DNA of 33,681 bases. Source: Opitutaceae bacterium. GTDB taxonomy: Bacteria > Verrucomicrobiota > Verrucomicrobiia > Opitutales > Opitutaceae. The DNA is taken from assembly GCA_028822375.1 (NCBI GenBank), contig JAPKDW010000017.1:1-33681 (forward strand), read 5' to 3'. A program made the position numbers and the translations under genes. Position 1 is the stretch's first letter, and each line of letters begins with the position of its first letter. Positions 1-25,924 of the stretch are shown here, piece after piece. The notes under the pieces are model-generated. The model was not told the DNA's origin. It made no database searches and saw only the letters and a list, made by a program, of their open reading frames with translations.

Positions 1-435
1 GCCTCTTCCTCTTCCTTTTGTTTTGCCGCCGCCGCCGCCGCCGCCGCCGCGATAGCCACCGCCACCGCCACCGCCGCCGCCGTAGCCACCGCCACCGCCA
101 CTGTAGCCACCGCCACCGCCGCTGTAGCCTCCGCCACCACCTCCGCCGCTGCCGCCGCGGAATCCGCCACCGCCGCCACCGCGGGGTCGCTCAGGTCGAG
201 GGGTTGCCTCGCGTACTCTTAATTCACGTCCAAGGAGTTCGGTTCCATTGAGCGATTCAATCGCAGTATTAGCTTCGCCAGAATCGGTCATGGTTATGAA
301 TGCAAAACCGCGAGGTCTTCCAGTTTCACGATCCATGATCAATTTAACGGATTCAACTGCTCCGAACGTAGCGAATGCTTCGCGTACGTCATCTTCGGAT
401 GCGTCGAATGTCAGGTTGCCTACATATATGTCCAT
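1..435 (-). CDS. RRM-type Gly-rich RNA-binding protein, cut by left edge
   Basis: Single-strand RNA-binding protein of the bacterial RRM/Rbp type, probably cytoplasmic. The start is the ATG at 435-433, and the frame stays open for 145 codons to the left edge, so the C terminus is missing. One RNA recognition motif fills residues 2-76, with RNP-2 IYVGNL at 3-8 and RNP-1 RGFAFITM at 42-49, including the aromatic residues expected to stack on RNA. From residue 85 the protein becomes almost pure glycine with YSGGGGG repeats, then ends in view with a basic KTKGRGRG stretch. This RRM plus Gly-rich layout is known from cyanobacterial and other bacterial Rbp proteins linked to cold or RNA metabolism; the role here is inferred. 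No clear Shine-Dalgarno precedes the ATG. It is separated from ruvB by 148 bases. Confidence 0.93.
   Translation of the reverse strand, partial: MDIYVGNLTFDASEDDVREAFATFGAVESVKLIMDRETGRPRGFAFITMTDSGEANTAIESLNGTELLGRELRVREATPRPERPRGGGGGGFRGGSGGGGGGGYSGGGGGYSGGGGGYGGGGGGGGGYRGGGGGGGGKTKGRGRG
25..144 (-). repeat. GCC tract and 21-base coding repeats of the Gly-rich tail
   Basis: A run of eight GCC trinucleotides (25-50) is followed by near-identical 21-base units, for example 82-102 and 103-123, which read on the minus strand as YSGGGGG heptads. The repeats lie inside the RNA-binding protein gene and probably expand or contract by replication slippage. Confidence 0.85.
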
Positions 436-8046: not shown

Positions 8047-8122
<76 letters not shown>

Positions 8123-8198: not shown

Positions 8199-9389
8199 AT
8201 GGCTAAAGGAACCTTCGAAAGAACTAAACCACACGTAAACGTTGGCACTATCGGACACGTTGACCATGGTAAAACTACGTTGACGACGTCGATCTTGGCT
8301 GTTCAAGCAGGCAAGGGACTCGCGGAAGCTAAGTCATACGCCGATATCGCTAAGGGTGGTACGGTTCGTGATGAGACAAAGGTTGTAACGATCTCTGTCG
8401 CTCACGTTGAGTATGAGTCTGACAAGCGTCACTACGCTCACGTCGACTGCCCAGGTCACGCGGACTTCGTAAAGAACATGATCACGGGTGCGGCGCAGAT
8501 GGATGGCGCGATCTTGGTTGTGAGCGCGGCTGATGGACCAATGCCTCAGACTCGCGAGCACATCCTGCTCGCTCGTCAGGTTGGCGTTCCTAGCATCGTG
8601 GTTTTCCTTAACAAGTGCGACCTAATCGACGACGAGGAACTCCTCGAATTGGTTGAGATGGAAGTGCGCGAATTGCTCGACAAGTACGACTTTCCAGGCG
8701 ACGACACCACGATCATTCGCGGTTCCGCTATTGCGGCTCTCGAAGGCACGGATGAAGGCAAGGCTAACATCCAAGCTCTTATGGATGCCATCGACACGGA
8801 TGTAGTTGAGCCAGAGCGCGAAATCGACAAGCCATTCTTGATGTCTGTTGAAGACGTATTCTCGATCACTGGTCGCGGTACGGTTGCTACAGGTCGTATC
8901 GAGCGTGGTATCATCAAGGTTGGTTCCGAAATCGAAATCGTTGGTCTTAAGGACACTGCGAAATCTATCGTAACAGGCGTTGAAATGTTCCGCAAGATGC
9001 TCGATCAAGGTCAAGCTGGCGACAATGTTGGTATTTTGCTTCGCGGCATAGAAAAGGAATCCATCGAGCGCGGTCAAGTATTGGCAGCCCCTGGTTCGAT
9101 TACGCCTCATAAGAAGGGTAAAGCTGAAATCTACGTTCTTTCTAAGGACGAAGGTGGACGTCACACTCCTTTCTTCAACGGCTACCGTCCTCAGTTCTAC
9201 TTCCGTACGACAGACGTAACGGGTATTTGCGAACTTCCTGAAGGCGTAGAGATGGTTATGCCAGGTGACAATATTTCGATCGTTGTTTCTTTGACTAAGC
9301 CAATCGCTATGGAAAAGGGCCAACGCTTCGCTATCCGTGAAGGCGGACGCACTATCGGAGCTGGACGTATTACCGACATCGTCGAGTAA
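8199..9389 (+). CDS. tuf: Translation elongation factor EF-Tu with unusual switch I
   Basis: GTPase that carries aminoacyl-tRNA to the ribosomal A site. The 396-residue product has the P-loop GHVDHGKT (19-26), DCPGH (83-87) with the catalytic histidine H87, NKCD (138-141), and complete domains 2 and 3 ending in [15 protein letters not shown]. The striking feature is switch I. The nearly invariant EEKARGITI of bacterial EF-Tu reads [13 protein letters not shown] here (53-65), two residues longer overall. It keeps the Mg2+-binding threonine (T64) but has K61-V62 in place of the Arg-Gly pair. The rest aligns without gaps to ordinary EF-Tu, so this is not a frameshift. No Shine-Dalgarno precedes the ATG. 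The gene is cotranscribed with tRNA-Thr and ends in a strong terminator. No second tuf follows fusA in this window. Confidence 0.98.
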
Positions 9390-9470: not shown

Positions 9471-9546
9471 AGGGCAGTAGCTCAATTGGTAGAGTAGTGG
9501 TCTCCAAAACCATTGGTTGGGGGTTCGACTCCCTCCTGCCCTGCCA
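9471..9546 (+). tRNA. tRNA-Trp (anticodon CCA)
   Basis: Acceptor arm AGGGCAG pairs with CTGCCCT, the discriminator is G, and CCA is encoded at 9544-9546. The anticodon loop CTCCAAA carries CCA, read as Trp. It stands before secE-nusG, a conserved arrangement in many bacteria. A TAAAAT at 9457-9462 could be a -10 box for it, but no convincing -35 box is visible, so it may depend on read-through from tuf. Confidence 0.97.
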
Positions 9547-23274: not shown

Positions 23275-23748
23275 ATGTCACGTCGCAGAAGAGCAGTTAA
23301 ACGCCAAACAAAGCCAGATTCCCGTTACGGAAGCGCTTTGGTTGGTCACCTTGTGAATACCGTCATGCGTGATGGTAAGAAAACGTTGGCAGAACGTATC
23401 GTGTATGCGGCGTTCGAGCGTATGAGCGAAAAGCTCGAAAAGGGAGATCCAGTGGACATGCTTCTCGGTGCTCTCGAAAACTCGCGCCCACGTTTGGAAG
23501 TTAAGAGCCGTCGTGTTGGTGGAGCTACTTACCAAGTGCCTTTGGAGATTCCATTCGAGCGTCAAGAATCGCTCGCCATGCGTTGGATGGTTAATGCAGC
23601 CGCGGCTCGCAAAGGCATTCCAATGAAAGACGCCCTTGCTGGCGAAATTATCGACGCCTACAATAATACTGGCGGAGTCGTTAAGAAGAAGGAAGAAACC
23701 CACAAGATGGCGCAGTCTAATCGCGCATTTGCTCACCTTCGTTGGTGA
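23275..23748 (+). CDS. rpsG: Ribosomal protein uS7
   Basis: Primary binder of the 3' major domain of 16S rRNA that nucleates the 30S head and lies near the E-site tRNA. In E. coli it also feeds back on the str operon. The 157 residues contain the N-terminal signature [18 protein letters not shown] and the conserved [11 protein letters not shown] (81-91). It follows rpsL by 27 bases, too short for the elaborate E. coli S7 site. No Shine-Dalgarno is visible. Confidence 0.99.
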
Positions 23749-23779
23749 TCGGGTTTTGTCCTTACTTGTTCTTTGTAAA

Positions 23780-25924
23780 ATGGTTGAAGCTCCCGCAGAT
23801 CTTTCCAATAAAAATGGCACCGGACGTCCTGTGCCTATGGAATGGACGCGTAATATTGGTATTGCTGCGCATATCGATGCTGGGAAGACCACAACCACAG
23901 AACGTATCCTCTATTATACAGGGGTAGTTCATAAGGTAGGAGAAGTTCATGACGGAAACGCCGTCACGGATTTTATGGAGCAGGAACGCGAGCGTGGTAT
24001 CACGATCACTTCCGCTGCAATCTCTTGCCAATGGGAAAACAAGGCAGGCCCTTTTGCTGGGATGAAACAGCAGATCAATATTATCGACACTCCGGGCCAC
24101 GTCGATTTTACCGCTGAAGTCGAACGCTCTTTAAGAGTGCTTGATGGGGCAGTTGCCGTTTTTTGCGCGGTTGCAGGCGTTCAGCCTCAATCGGAAACGG
24201 TTTGGCGTCAGGCTGACAAGTATGACGTGCCACGTATCGCATTCGTCAATAAGATGGATCGCGTTGGGGCGGACTTTTTGGGAGCGGTCGAAGACATGCG
24301 TACCAAGTTGGGCGCGAATGCTCATCCACTCTTTTTGAACATCGGCACGGAAGAGCATTTTTCCGGTATGATCGACTTGGTTCGTCTTAAGGCATTCCAG
24401 TTCGACCAAAACGATGCAATGGGGATCAACGTCATCGAGTGCGAAATTCCCGGCGATATGACTCGGGAAGTTACGGAATTGCGCGAATCGCTAATCGAAG
24501 CGGTTGCCGATTACGATGATGTCGTTGCTGACAAATATTTGAATGGCGAAGCGATCGATGAGTACGAGCTCGTTCTCGCAATTCGCAAAGCAACGCTTTC
24601 GCTTAACTTTGTTGGCGTAATACCAGGTTCGGCTTTTAAGAACAAAGGTGTGCAAAGCATGCTCGACGCGGTAGTGAACTACCTTCCGAGCCCGCTCGAT
24701 ATGCCACCTGTCGAAGGTCATGATCGCAAAGACAAAACGGTCGTCATTGAACCCGATGACAATGCTCCCGTAGCTGCGCTCGCGTTTAAGCTTTGGAGTG
24801 ACGCATATGTCGGAAAGCTCATTTTTATTCGCGTCTATAGCGGCACGATTAAAAAGGGAGACATGCTTTACAATCCGCGTACCGGCAAATCTGAGCGAGT
24901 GAGCCGGTTGCTGATTATGAAAGCGGATAGTCGCGACGATGTAGAATGCGCTCGTTCGGGTGACATTGTCGCTGCGATTGGCCTAAAGAACGTTTGGACG
25001 GGCGATACGTTCTCATCGAAGAATTTTGATATCGCTCTCGAGCCACCGCAATTTCCAGAACCAGTTATCTCGATGTCGATCGAGCCGGCAACGTCAGCCG
25101 ATCAAGATAAGCTTTCCCTCGGTCTCGGACGTTTGTCCGAAGAGGATCCTACTTTCGTTGTAAAAACGGATGCGGAAACGGGCCAAACGATCATTTCTGG
25201 AATGGGTGAGCTTCACCTCGAAATAATCCGCGATCGATTGGAGCGGGAATTCAAAGTTGTCGCTAGATCGGGCAAACCGCAAATCGCTTACCGTGAAACG
25301 ATCGGTATCTCTGTTGAAGCAGAAGGAAAATTTATTCGCCAGTCGGGTGGACGCGGTCAATACGGACACGCCGTCATCAAACTCGAACCACAGGAAAGCG
25401 GAAAAGAAATCGAAGTCGTCAACGAAATCGTGGGTGGCGTTATTCCAAAAGAATTTATTAAGCCGACCGAAGATGGTATCCGCGAAGCAGCTAATAACGG
25501 CGTTGTTGCCGGTTATCCTGTTGTAGATTGGAAAGCGACCCTCGTTAGCGGTTCGTTCCATGAAGTCGATTCATCGGAAATGGCATTTAAGATGGCCGGG
25601 ATCTTCGCTTTTAAGGAAGCGATGAAGAATGCTGATCCTCAATTGCTGGAGCCGGTAATGAAAGTCGAAGTGACAACGCCGATGGAATACCAGGGTGATG
25701 TCATTGGGGACCTTAATCGTCGACGCGGCCATATCCAAAATATGGATTCGAAGGGCGAAATCGCTTCTGTTCGCGCAATCGTGCCACTAGAAACGATGTT
25801 CGGCTACGCAACCGATGTTCGCTCTCTTAGTAAAGGGCGCGCTAATTACTCGATGGAAACATCTCATTTTGAACAAGTGCCGGCAAATGTGCTCGCAAGA
25901 ATGACAGACGATCTAAGCCGTTAG
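23780..25924 (+). CDS. fusA: Translation elongation factor EF-G
   Basis: GTPase that drives translocation and, with RRF, ribosome recycling. The 714-residue product has the P-loop AHIDAGKT (30-37), a normal switch I signature RGITI (72-76), DTPGH (103-107) and NKMD (157-160), then domains II to V, with the domain IV loop [10 protein letters not shown] present. The contrast with the EF-Tu in this window is useful: EF-G keeps the canonical RGITI. The ATG at 23780 gives about 20 residues before [12 protein letters not shown]. The frame is open further upstream into rpsG, but that part is not EF-G-like. It is followed directly by rpsJ, without the tuf gene that lies there in many bacteria. Confidence 0.98.

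Follow-up and report, generated by a model that had tools for sequence, protein, structure and literature searches.

EF-Tu, an essential and near-universal GTPase that delivers aminoacyl-tRNA to the ribosome, is reckoned among the most constrained bacterial proteins, and models of decoding rest on residues of its switch I. The switch I signature of translational (tr-type) G domains is, as we take it in a PROSITE-like form, Arg-Gly-Ile-Thr-Ile (RGITI) ahead of an HVEY segment, and Kuhle and Ficner are said to have described a monovalent ion in 2014. The P-loop aspartate (E. coli D21) belongs to a monovalent-ion site according to the available parts of PMC4342817 and PMC4509514, and V20 and I60 are assigned the role of a hydrophobic gate in the accessible text of PMC3037878. 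As far as the available portion of PMC4342817 goes, actEF-Tu2 and Streptomyces EF-Tu3 make up the one EF-Tu-like subfamily of bacteria that stands clearly apart, an additional, condition-specific copy in some actinomycetes. The archaeal translational-GTPase relative aSelBL lacks RGITI, with the consensus KGTXX in the excerpted PMC3037878; there, conservation of the switch II histidine is lost and the usual GTP hydrolysis is thought unlikely. K-loop TRAFAC GTPases such as MnmE have a longer switch I and, at the ion site, an Asp or Asn from the P-loop, and arginine or lysine fingers can replace the ion or longer switch I loops can bind it (PMC6310460, in part).

The window analysed here is a stretch of 33,681 nucleotides from an Opitutaceae bacterium (assembly GCA_028822375.1). 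Its tuf gene (8199–9389, + strand) encodes an EF-Tu of 396 amino acids, in which the Pfam domains GTP_EFTU, GTP_EFTU_D2 and GTP_EFTU_D3 occur in this order, all above curated cut-offs. The P-loop, GHVDHGK (residues 19–25; 8253–8273, +) followed by Thr, includes Asp22 of the monovalent-ion site (E. coli D21). Switch II contains DCPGH (residues 83–87; 8445–8459, +) with the catalytic His87 (E. coli H84), and the NKxD motif is present as NKCDL (residues 138–142; 8610–8624, +), where Leu142 corresponds to E. coli M139; an earlier note made from the DNA alone had described these motifs as standard, and they are. Directly after the P-loop (8274–8282), many Opitutales-type EF-Tus, L019 and L025 among them, read GKTTTT and not GKTTLT, a Leu-to-Thr change at E. 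coli L27; the window protein retains the leucine.

The gene lies downstream of tRNA-Thr(GGU) (8047–8122, +) and upstream of tRNA-Trp(CCA) (9471–9546, +). Frames located 3′ of the latter are presumably secE, nusG, rplK, rplA, rplJ, rplL, rpoB and rpoC, which they resemble by inspection. The genome of the window (G000; 457 contigs) yielded one full-length tuf, and no second tuf was found in this 93.36% complete assembly, the next matches being other GTPases at 30–35% identity. With a single tuf in a neighbourhood of tRNA and ribosomal-protein genes, the protein is the only or main EF-Tu of the genome. Among the seven translational GTPases seen in that genome, EF-Tu alone has a changed motif. The EF-G reading frame of the window (23636–25924, +; start uncertain) has the canonical ERERGITI, as the earlier note had stated, and the motif glycine is also kept in proteins named by inspection as LepA-like (ERERGITI), TypA-like (EREKGITI), CysN-like (EREQGITI) and IF2-like (GGIT). 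A second EF-G-like protein, again named by inspection (L006, G000:C118), has a canonical ERGITI.

Aligned with E. coli EF-Tu (PDB sequence u56080; FDQIDNAPEEKARGITI), the window protein has two additional residues and lacks RGITI, both of which had been proposed from the DNA alone, and alignments to solved EF-Tus place a two-residue gap in those proteins opposite its loop. The altered segment (residues 47–65; 8337–8393, +) contains Y47, K52, R57 and D58 and ends in K61-V62-V63-T64-I65; residues 52–66 correspond to bases 8352–8396. Y47, K52, R57, D58, K61, T64 and I65 are invariant among 44 aligned sequences of the two non-canonical loop types, O (that of the window) and K. Val63 (8385–8387, +) occupies the hydrophobic-gate position of E. 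coli Ile60, and Thr64 corresponds to Thr61, the Mg2+-binding threonine of switch I, rightly described before as kept. With the alignment anchored on Thr61, K61-V62 stand where R58-G59 stood, and the exchange of Arg-Gly for Lys-Val given in the earlier note is then correct. R57-D58 could alternatively be the old Arg-Gly pair, with the extra residues placed between it and Ile60-Thr61, an alignment under which that exchange disappears. A planctomycete loop (L359; KGGEQRGETKILTI), which retains Arg-Gly upstream of an inserted stretch, supports this second alignment. In AlphaFold models of one O and one K protein, switch I has a pLDDT below 50 in both.

In a non-redundant set of 206 EF-Tus (pairwise less than 88% identical), the loops fall into discrete types: 73 are canonical (C), 67 are K, 65 are O and one is of another kind. 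RGITI is thus missing from 132 of the 205 typed proteins, in a set enriched for the variant, so that this signature cannot define EF-Tu itself. The type K loop, AKASESQGRRDxTKILTI, is longer than O and related to it. Counted back from Thr61, the invariant positions are I(−12), D(−11), P(−8), E(−7), E(−6), R(−3) and G(−2) in C; Y(−20), AKAS(−16 to −13), GRRD(−9 to −6), K(−3) and I(−2) in K; and Y(−17), KGG(−12 to −10), RD(−7, −6) and K(−3) in O. Position −2 is Gly in 73/73 C loops, Ile in 67/67 K loops, and Thr (49), Ile (11) or Val (5) in O, and hence β-branched in every typed non-canonical loop. K and O are probably one lineage separated by a three-residue indel, because K, RD and [ST]K are shared at matching places. 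Two odd loops were met in the Planctomycetota sample, L359 (G435:C27:76408–77607), which looks like an intermediate, and L372 (G441:C266:4617–5810; KGGTRRSDSKIITI).

D21, K24, T61 and H84 are unchanged in 205/205 typed EF-Tus; at T25, one C and eight O sequences have Ser. The gate pair V20/I60, scored in 315 unique sequences, is V-I in 94 of 102 C proteins and V-L in 86 of 102 K proteins; among 110 O sequences it is I-V in 68 and V-V in 40, the latter being the state of the window protein. The I-V gate of type O is a partial swap of sizes relative to V-I and spans the edge of the exchanged segment. Outside residues 36–65, M139 is the one site that differs in 7/7 same-clade contrasts; it is replaced by several residues (L, T, A, K, S) and may be regarded as a lead towards a compensating site.

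Within the phylum, 288 genomes were sampled, with up to six candidates scored per genome, and each of the 274 that gave an EF-Tu at E ≤ 1e-100 gave a single match at that threshold. The counts by loop cover 129 genomes, namely 128 of the 274 and G255 (partial match), the other 146 of the 274 standing outside them. All typed genomes of the window’s order (42/42), among them the single-contig genome of a congener (L008), have type O, and the allele is fixed as far as the order was typed. Typed genomes from other orders of the same class are canonical (22/22), and the rest of the phylum contains K in 43 and the canonical loop in 22 typed genomes, L137 being counted as K. A conserved indel in EF-Tu switch I is absent from the PVC-group indels shown in the available part of PMC3444138. 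In the literature covered, which leaves out most subscription journals, no account of the O or K loop or of their distribution was found.

The non-canonical loops extend well beyond the phylum. The pattern RD-x-[ST]-K-x-x-T-I-(3)-HVEY, run on a named genome collection, matched at least 117 stretches, a floor and not a census; 116 of the matches listed were typed (70 O, 46 K). The titles among the matches listed include Opitutales, Lacunisphaera, Kiritimatiellaeota, Pontiella, Lentisphaerae, many Planctomycetota including Rhodopirellula baltica, Gemmatimonas, Sorangium cellulosum, Minicystis, Polyangium, Nitrospira, Hyphomicrobium, Hydrocarboniphaga effusa, Omnitrophota, Elusimicrobia, Acidobacteriota and Eisenbacteria. 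Lone odd placements among them may be contamination, many being metagenome bins. The suggestion that the altered loop is a feature of the clade therefore holds for the order and fails as a restriction to it, and the view that almost all bacteria have the canonical form is contradicted by O and K loops in many phyla. In the type-O tuf of a Rhodopirellula baltica draft (BR-MGV; L235/L456), the P-loop and the C terminus lie in different frames, and L235 was left out as a full-length case.

Samples per clade, counted by genome and including a centre genome chosen for having the variant, contain both canonical and non-canonical forms. The order of Hydrocarboniphaga has 7 K and 11 C (18 genomes with a match, 31 searched); Gemmatimonadota 14 K, 5 C and 1 untyped (20 of 31); Nitrospirota 2 K, 12 C and 1 untyped (15 of 31); Myxococcota 3 O, 13 C and 1 untyped (17 of 28); and the order of Hyphomicrobium 2 K and 17 C (19 of 31). 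The 31 Planctomycetota genomes read among 37 with a match (40 searched) comprise 10 O including the centre, 3 K, 15 C, the two odd loops L359 and L372, and 1 unread. The EF-Tu match is missing from many genomes perhaps through poor assembly of tuf repeats.

Of 49 named variant genomes searched, 48 had a match and the loop of the best match was read in 46; it is O or K in 45 and canonical in one (G317). This Chlorobiaceae metagenome bin has a full canonical tuf (L434) and, on another contig, a type-O loop (L201) that is probably contamination. Two tuf copies were read in 41 genomes, one of the second copies being partial, and were of the same loop type in 41/41, so that no genome of mixed type was found among them. 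O or K is the sole EF-Tu type in nearly all hosts read. Some genomes contain further EF-Tu-like genes. The genome of L237, titled Eisenbacteria, encodes an extra EF-Tu-like protein (G316:C26:18097–19239; 39% identity) about 15 kb from its K-type tuf. A second EF-Tu in the Myxococcota sample (L330; G380:C135:8296–9453) has a canonical loop and is 53% identical to the window protein, and its genome also has a tuf at 68%. Two clearly different canonical EF-Tus of 396 and 392 amino acids, one of them shorter at the start of switch I, occur together in G512 of the Hyphomicrobium order (L416 and L430).

The loop and the body of the gene group the sequences differently. A FastTree tree that includes the loop separates C from non-C without exception (0 misplaced, support 0.965). 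Without residues 36–65, the type labels need 14 parsimony changes; residues 205 onward need 22, and the remaining G domain 5. The perfect split arises only through the loop being in the alignment, and the whole-alignment tree alone was rejected as evidence. Regional identities follow the same division: K and C of Gemmatimonadota are 43.1% identical in the loop, 79.6% over residues 201–300 and 85.5% over residues 301–393, and the corresponding values for Gemmatimonadota K against Kiritimatiella-group K are 75.4%, 68.8% and 76.5%. Over residues 201–300, the K proteins of Gemmatimonadota, Nitrospirota (one sequence) and the Kiritimatiella group are nearer to C of their own phylum than to K of other phyla. 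Planctomycetota K proteins are no closer over residues 201–393 to their own C (70.1% for 201–300 and 77.3% for 301–393) than to Gemmatimonadota K (70.5% and 79.9%), and the Nevskiales-order K proteins give a mixed picture. Sliding windows locate the change at about residues 45–64, in Nitrospira from about residue 30. The flanks, at roughly residues 15–25 and 80–100, are 88–100% identical between types in the K contrasts and 80–100% in the Opitutales contrast.

Approximately unbiased (AU) tests on constrained maximum-likelihood trees used 3 to 5 sequences per group, in comparisons that share sequences and with uncorrected p-values; the clade labels Nev, Hyp, Kir, Len and Opi were assigned from centre genomes and named relatives. 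For the loop, grouping by phylum is rejected in 15/15 comparisons (12 K, 3 O), a result that is partly circular since the types are defined from the loop. For the body, grouping by phylum is best in 11 of the 12 K comparisons, and grouping by type is rejected at 0.05 in 8 of them: Nev–Nit (p-AU 0.013), Nev–KirLen (0.023), Gem–Nit (0.0022), Gem–KirLen (0.0001), Nit–KirLen (0.011), Gem–PlaK (0.004), Hyp–Gem (0.007) and Hyp–Nit (0.0034). It is not rejected in Nev–Gem (0.80, type best), KirLen–PlaK (0.13), Hyp–KirLen (0.22) and Hyp–Nev (0.13), and in all three O comparisons (0.25, 0.49 and 0.40). In a fast search of six control windows in four comparisons, phylum is favoured in 17/24. Window 1–36 leans towards type in 4/4 comparisons (+1.1 to +7.3 lnL), as do Nit–KirLen 240–280 (+2.5), Hyp–Gem 100–140 (+0.9) and Hyp–Gem 140–178 (+12.7), and these type-leaning windows imply that tract ends vary or are blurred. 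The loop itself prefers type by 31–41 lnL in these four comparisons, against at most 12.7 lnL in a control window. A recent exchange with recognizable breakpoints was not found; even the closest pair of unlike type is only 85.4% identical in the body. For the K types, the loop and the remainder of the gene do not share one history. For O, the type of the window itself, the loop is common to several phyla, and movement of the segment or of the whole gene would each be compatible with the sequences.

The window gene thus likely encodes the normal, essential EF-Tu of its genome, with one of two related switch I alleles that have spread by replacement. A single old alternative loop would have been derived from the canonical one by insertion of a few residues just before Thr61, and would have passed between phyla when homologous recombination replaced a stretch at about E. 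coli residues 45–64 (roughly 20–30 residues), at times together with further parts of the G domain or the complete gene; the conserved flanking stretches would suit such recombination. The K types are explained most simply by tuf genes having exchanged a short segment. Entire genes were probably transferred as well, between Gemmatimonadota and the order of Hydrocarboniphaga, because K of the Nevskiales order groups with Gemmatimonadota K over the whole body (p-AU 0.80 for type). Transfer of entire O or K genes into each clade, replacing the resident tuf without any segment exchange, would accommodate that grouping as well as the O-type body comparisons and the uniform type of the 41 genomes with two copies read, but is unlikely given the eight rejections of type among the 12 K body tests, strongest for Gem–KirLen, Gem–Nit and Hyp–Nit, and the affinity of K to own-phylum C over residues 201–300 in Gemmatimonadota, Nitrospirota and the Kiritimatiella group (not in Planctomycetota, and mixed in the Nevskiales order).

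A patchy distribution might also descend from an ancient pair of tuf genes, one canonical and one alternative, in which gene conversion homogenized everything except switch I before differential loss. Conversion between tuf copies is on record (PMC4342817, in the part available), and the metagenome bin G317 has both loops, albeit on different contigs. A great number of parallel losses would be needed, however, and the lack of mixed genomes among the 41 read pairs and the single match at E ≤ 1e-100 in each of the 274 phylum genomes make such a past quite improbable. Convergence, with the same loop arising independently in each clade under a common constraint, draws on the strong positional constraint within each type, which would allow few workable solutions; it is hard to reconcile with K loops from at least five sampled phyla that share ten invariant residues (AKAS, GRRD, K and I; 67/67) and are lengthened to the same extent, or with the near lack of intermediates, L359 and L372 being the only odd forms, and has very little to recommend it. 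The chance that the loop is a sequencing or assembly error, or belongs to a non-expressed second copy, is negligible. These objections had been raised in the earlier note itself, and the check for error is answered by the same-genus genome and the 42 typed genomes of the order that share the loop, that for a second copy by the single tuf and its tRNA and ribosomal-protein neighbourhood.

In addition to this preferred history of allelic replacement, the residues kept and lost allow some predictions on function. Most likely, the O and K proteins are ordinary EF-Tus in which switch I and the hydrophobic gate have been remodelled. Because the catalytic residues are retained, GTP hydrolysis on the ribosome would be expected to be normal, with GTP bound in the usual way, Mg2+ coordinated by Thr61 and His84 serving hydrolysis. 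The earlier note had proposed that the timing of this hydrolysis or the response to antibiotics might differ. Switch I would follow another backbone path, with a β-branched residue in place of Gly59 (in the Thr61-anchored alignment) and Asp50 lost, and would acquire a new invariant lysine and an Arg-Asp pair, with the gate re-packed. At the ion site, Asp21 is kept and Gly59 is replaced in both types; by analogy with TRAFAC GTPases, a lysine in place of the ion or a longer loop that binds it could both fit. In EF-G, switch I Arg58 contacts A2662 of the sarcin–ricin loop, according to the excerpted PMC8505512; in the window protein, Lys61 or Arg57 might make such a contact.

Selection by Lit-type proteases or loop-directed toxins could have favoured the alternative loop and would be compatible with spread by replacement. 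Lit cuts EF-Tu between Gly59 and Ile60 (PMC3014915, available in part), a bond absent from the O and K loops, yet its family, Peptidase_U49 (PF10463), occurs in 3/288 phylum genomes and 0/14 controls, too rarely for a test. No avoidance is seen either, as all three genomes with such a gene (G162, G221 and G143, with L406–L408) have O or K loops, and there is only a slim chance that this was the selective force. The distribution of Peptidase_U49 was set aside as an explanation, three genomes in 288 being uninformative. A broader reading, in which switch I is an exchangeable allele, repeatedly replaced by segment transfer, with a re-engineered ion site and kept for escape from attackers, is conceivable as a whole but doubtful. 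Its ion site would use the invariant lysine instead of the ion, or bind the ion more tightly through a lengthened K-loop, and the attackers escaped would be those that recognize or cut the RGITI loop.

The object of interest is therefore a widespread alternative switch I, the spread of which was, at least for K, partly independent of the gene. If whole clades run on another loop, Arg58-Gly59-Ile60 is not required as such, and the O and K proteins would offer natural alternatives for probing how the loop bears on GTP hydrolysis, dependence on ions, contact with tRNA and susceptibility to toxins or proteases directed at it. If the loop passed between phyla on its own, two histories are mixed in EF-Tu trees and in ancestral EF-Tu reconstructions unless the segment is excluded. 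The source taxa of the ten tuf genes that have been placed in E. coli presumably have canonical loops, in which case those exchanges are no test of the O or K loop. All ten are extant genes, as described in the accessible portion of PMC5574714.

Set against the described systems, the O and K proteins resemble K-loop GTPases such as MnmE in their longer switch I and P-loop Asp, a likeness to the potassium-dependent TRAFAC K-loop that is one of analogy. They share with aSelBL the lack of RGITI in a relative of the translational GTPases, and differ from it in retaining the switch II histidine in 132/132 sequences, His87 in the window protein. Like actEF-Tu2 and EF-Tu3 they are diverged bacterial EF-Tus, but in place of an additional, condition-specific copy beside a canonical tuf they are the only type in nearly all genomes, as is the single tuf of the window’s genome. 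With canonical EF-Tu (E. coli tufA; PDB 6i8r, 3u2q) they have in common the three Pfam domains, the P-loop, Thr61, DCPGH with His84, NKxD and a single main copy. In contrast to it, residues of approximately 49–60 in switch I are replaced, Asp50, Pro53, Glu55 and Gly59 are missing, O has two and K five additional residues, and Ile60 of the gate is mostly Val or Leu.
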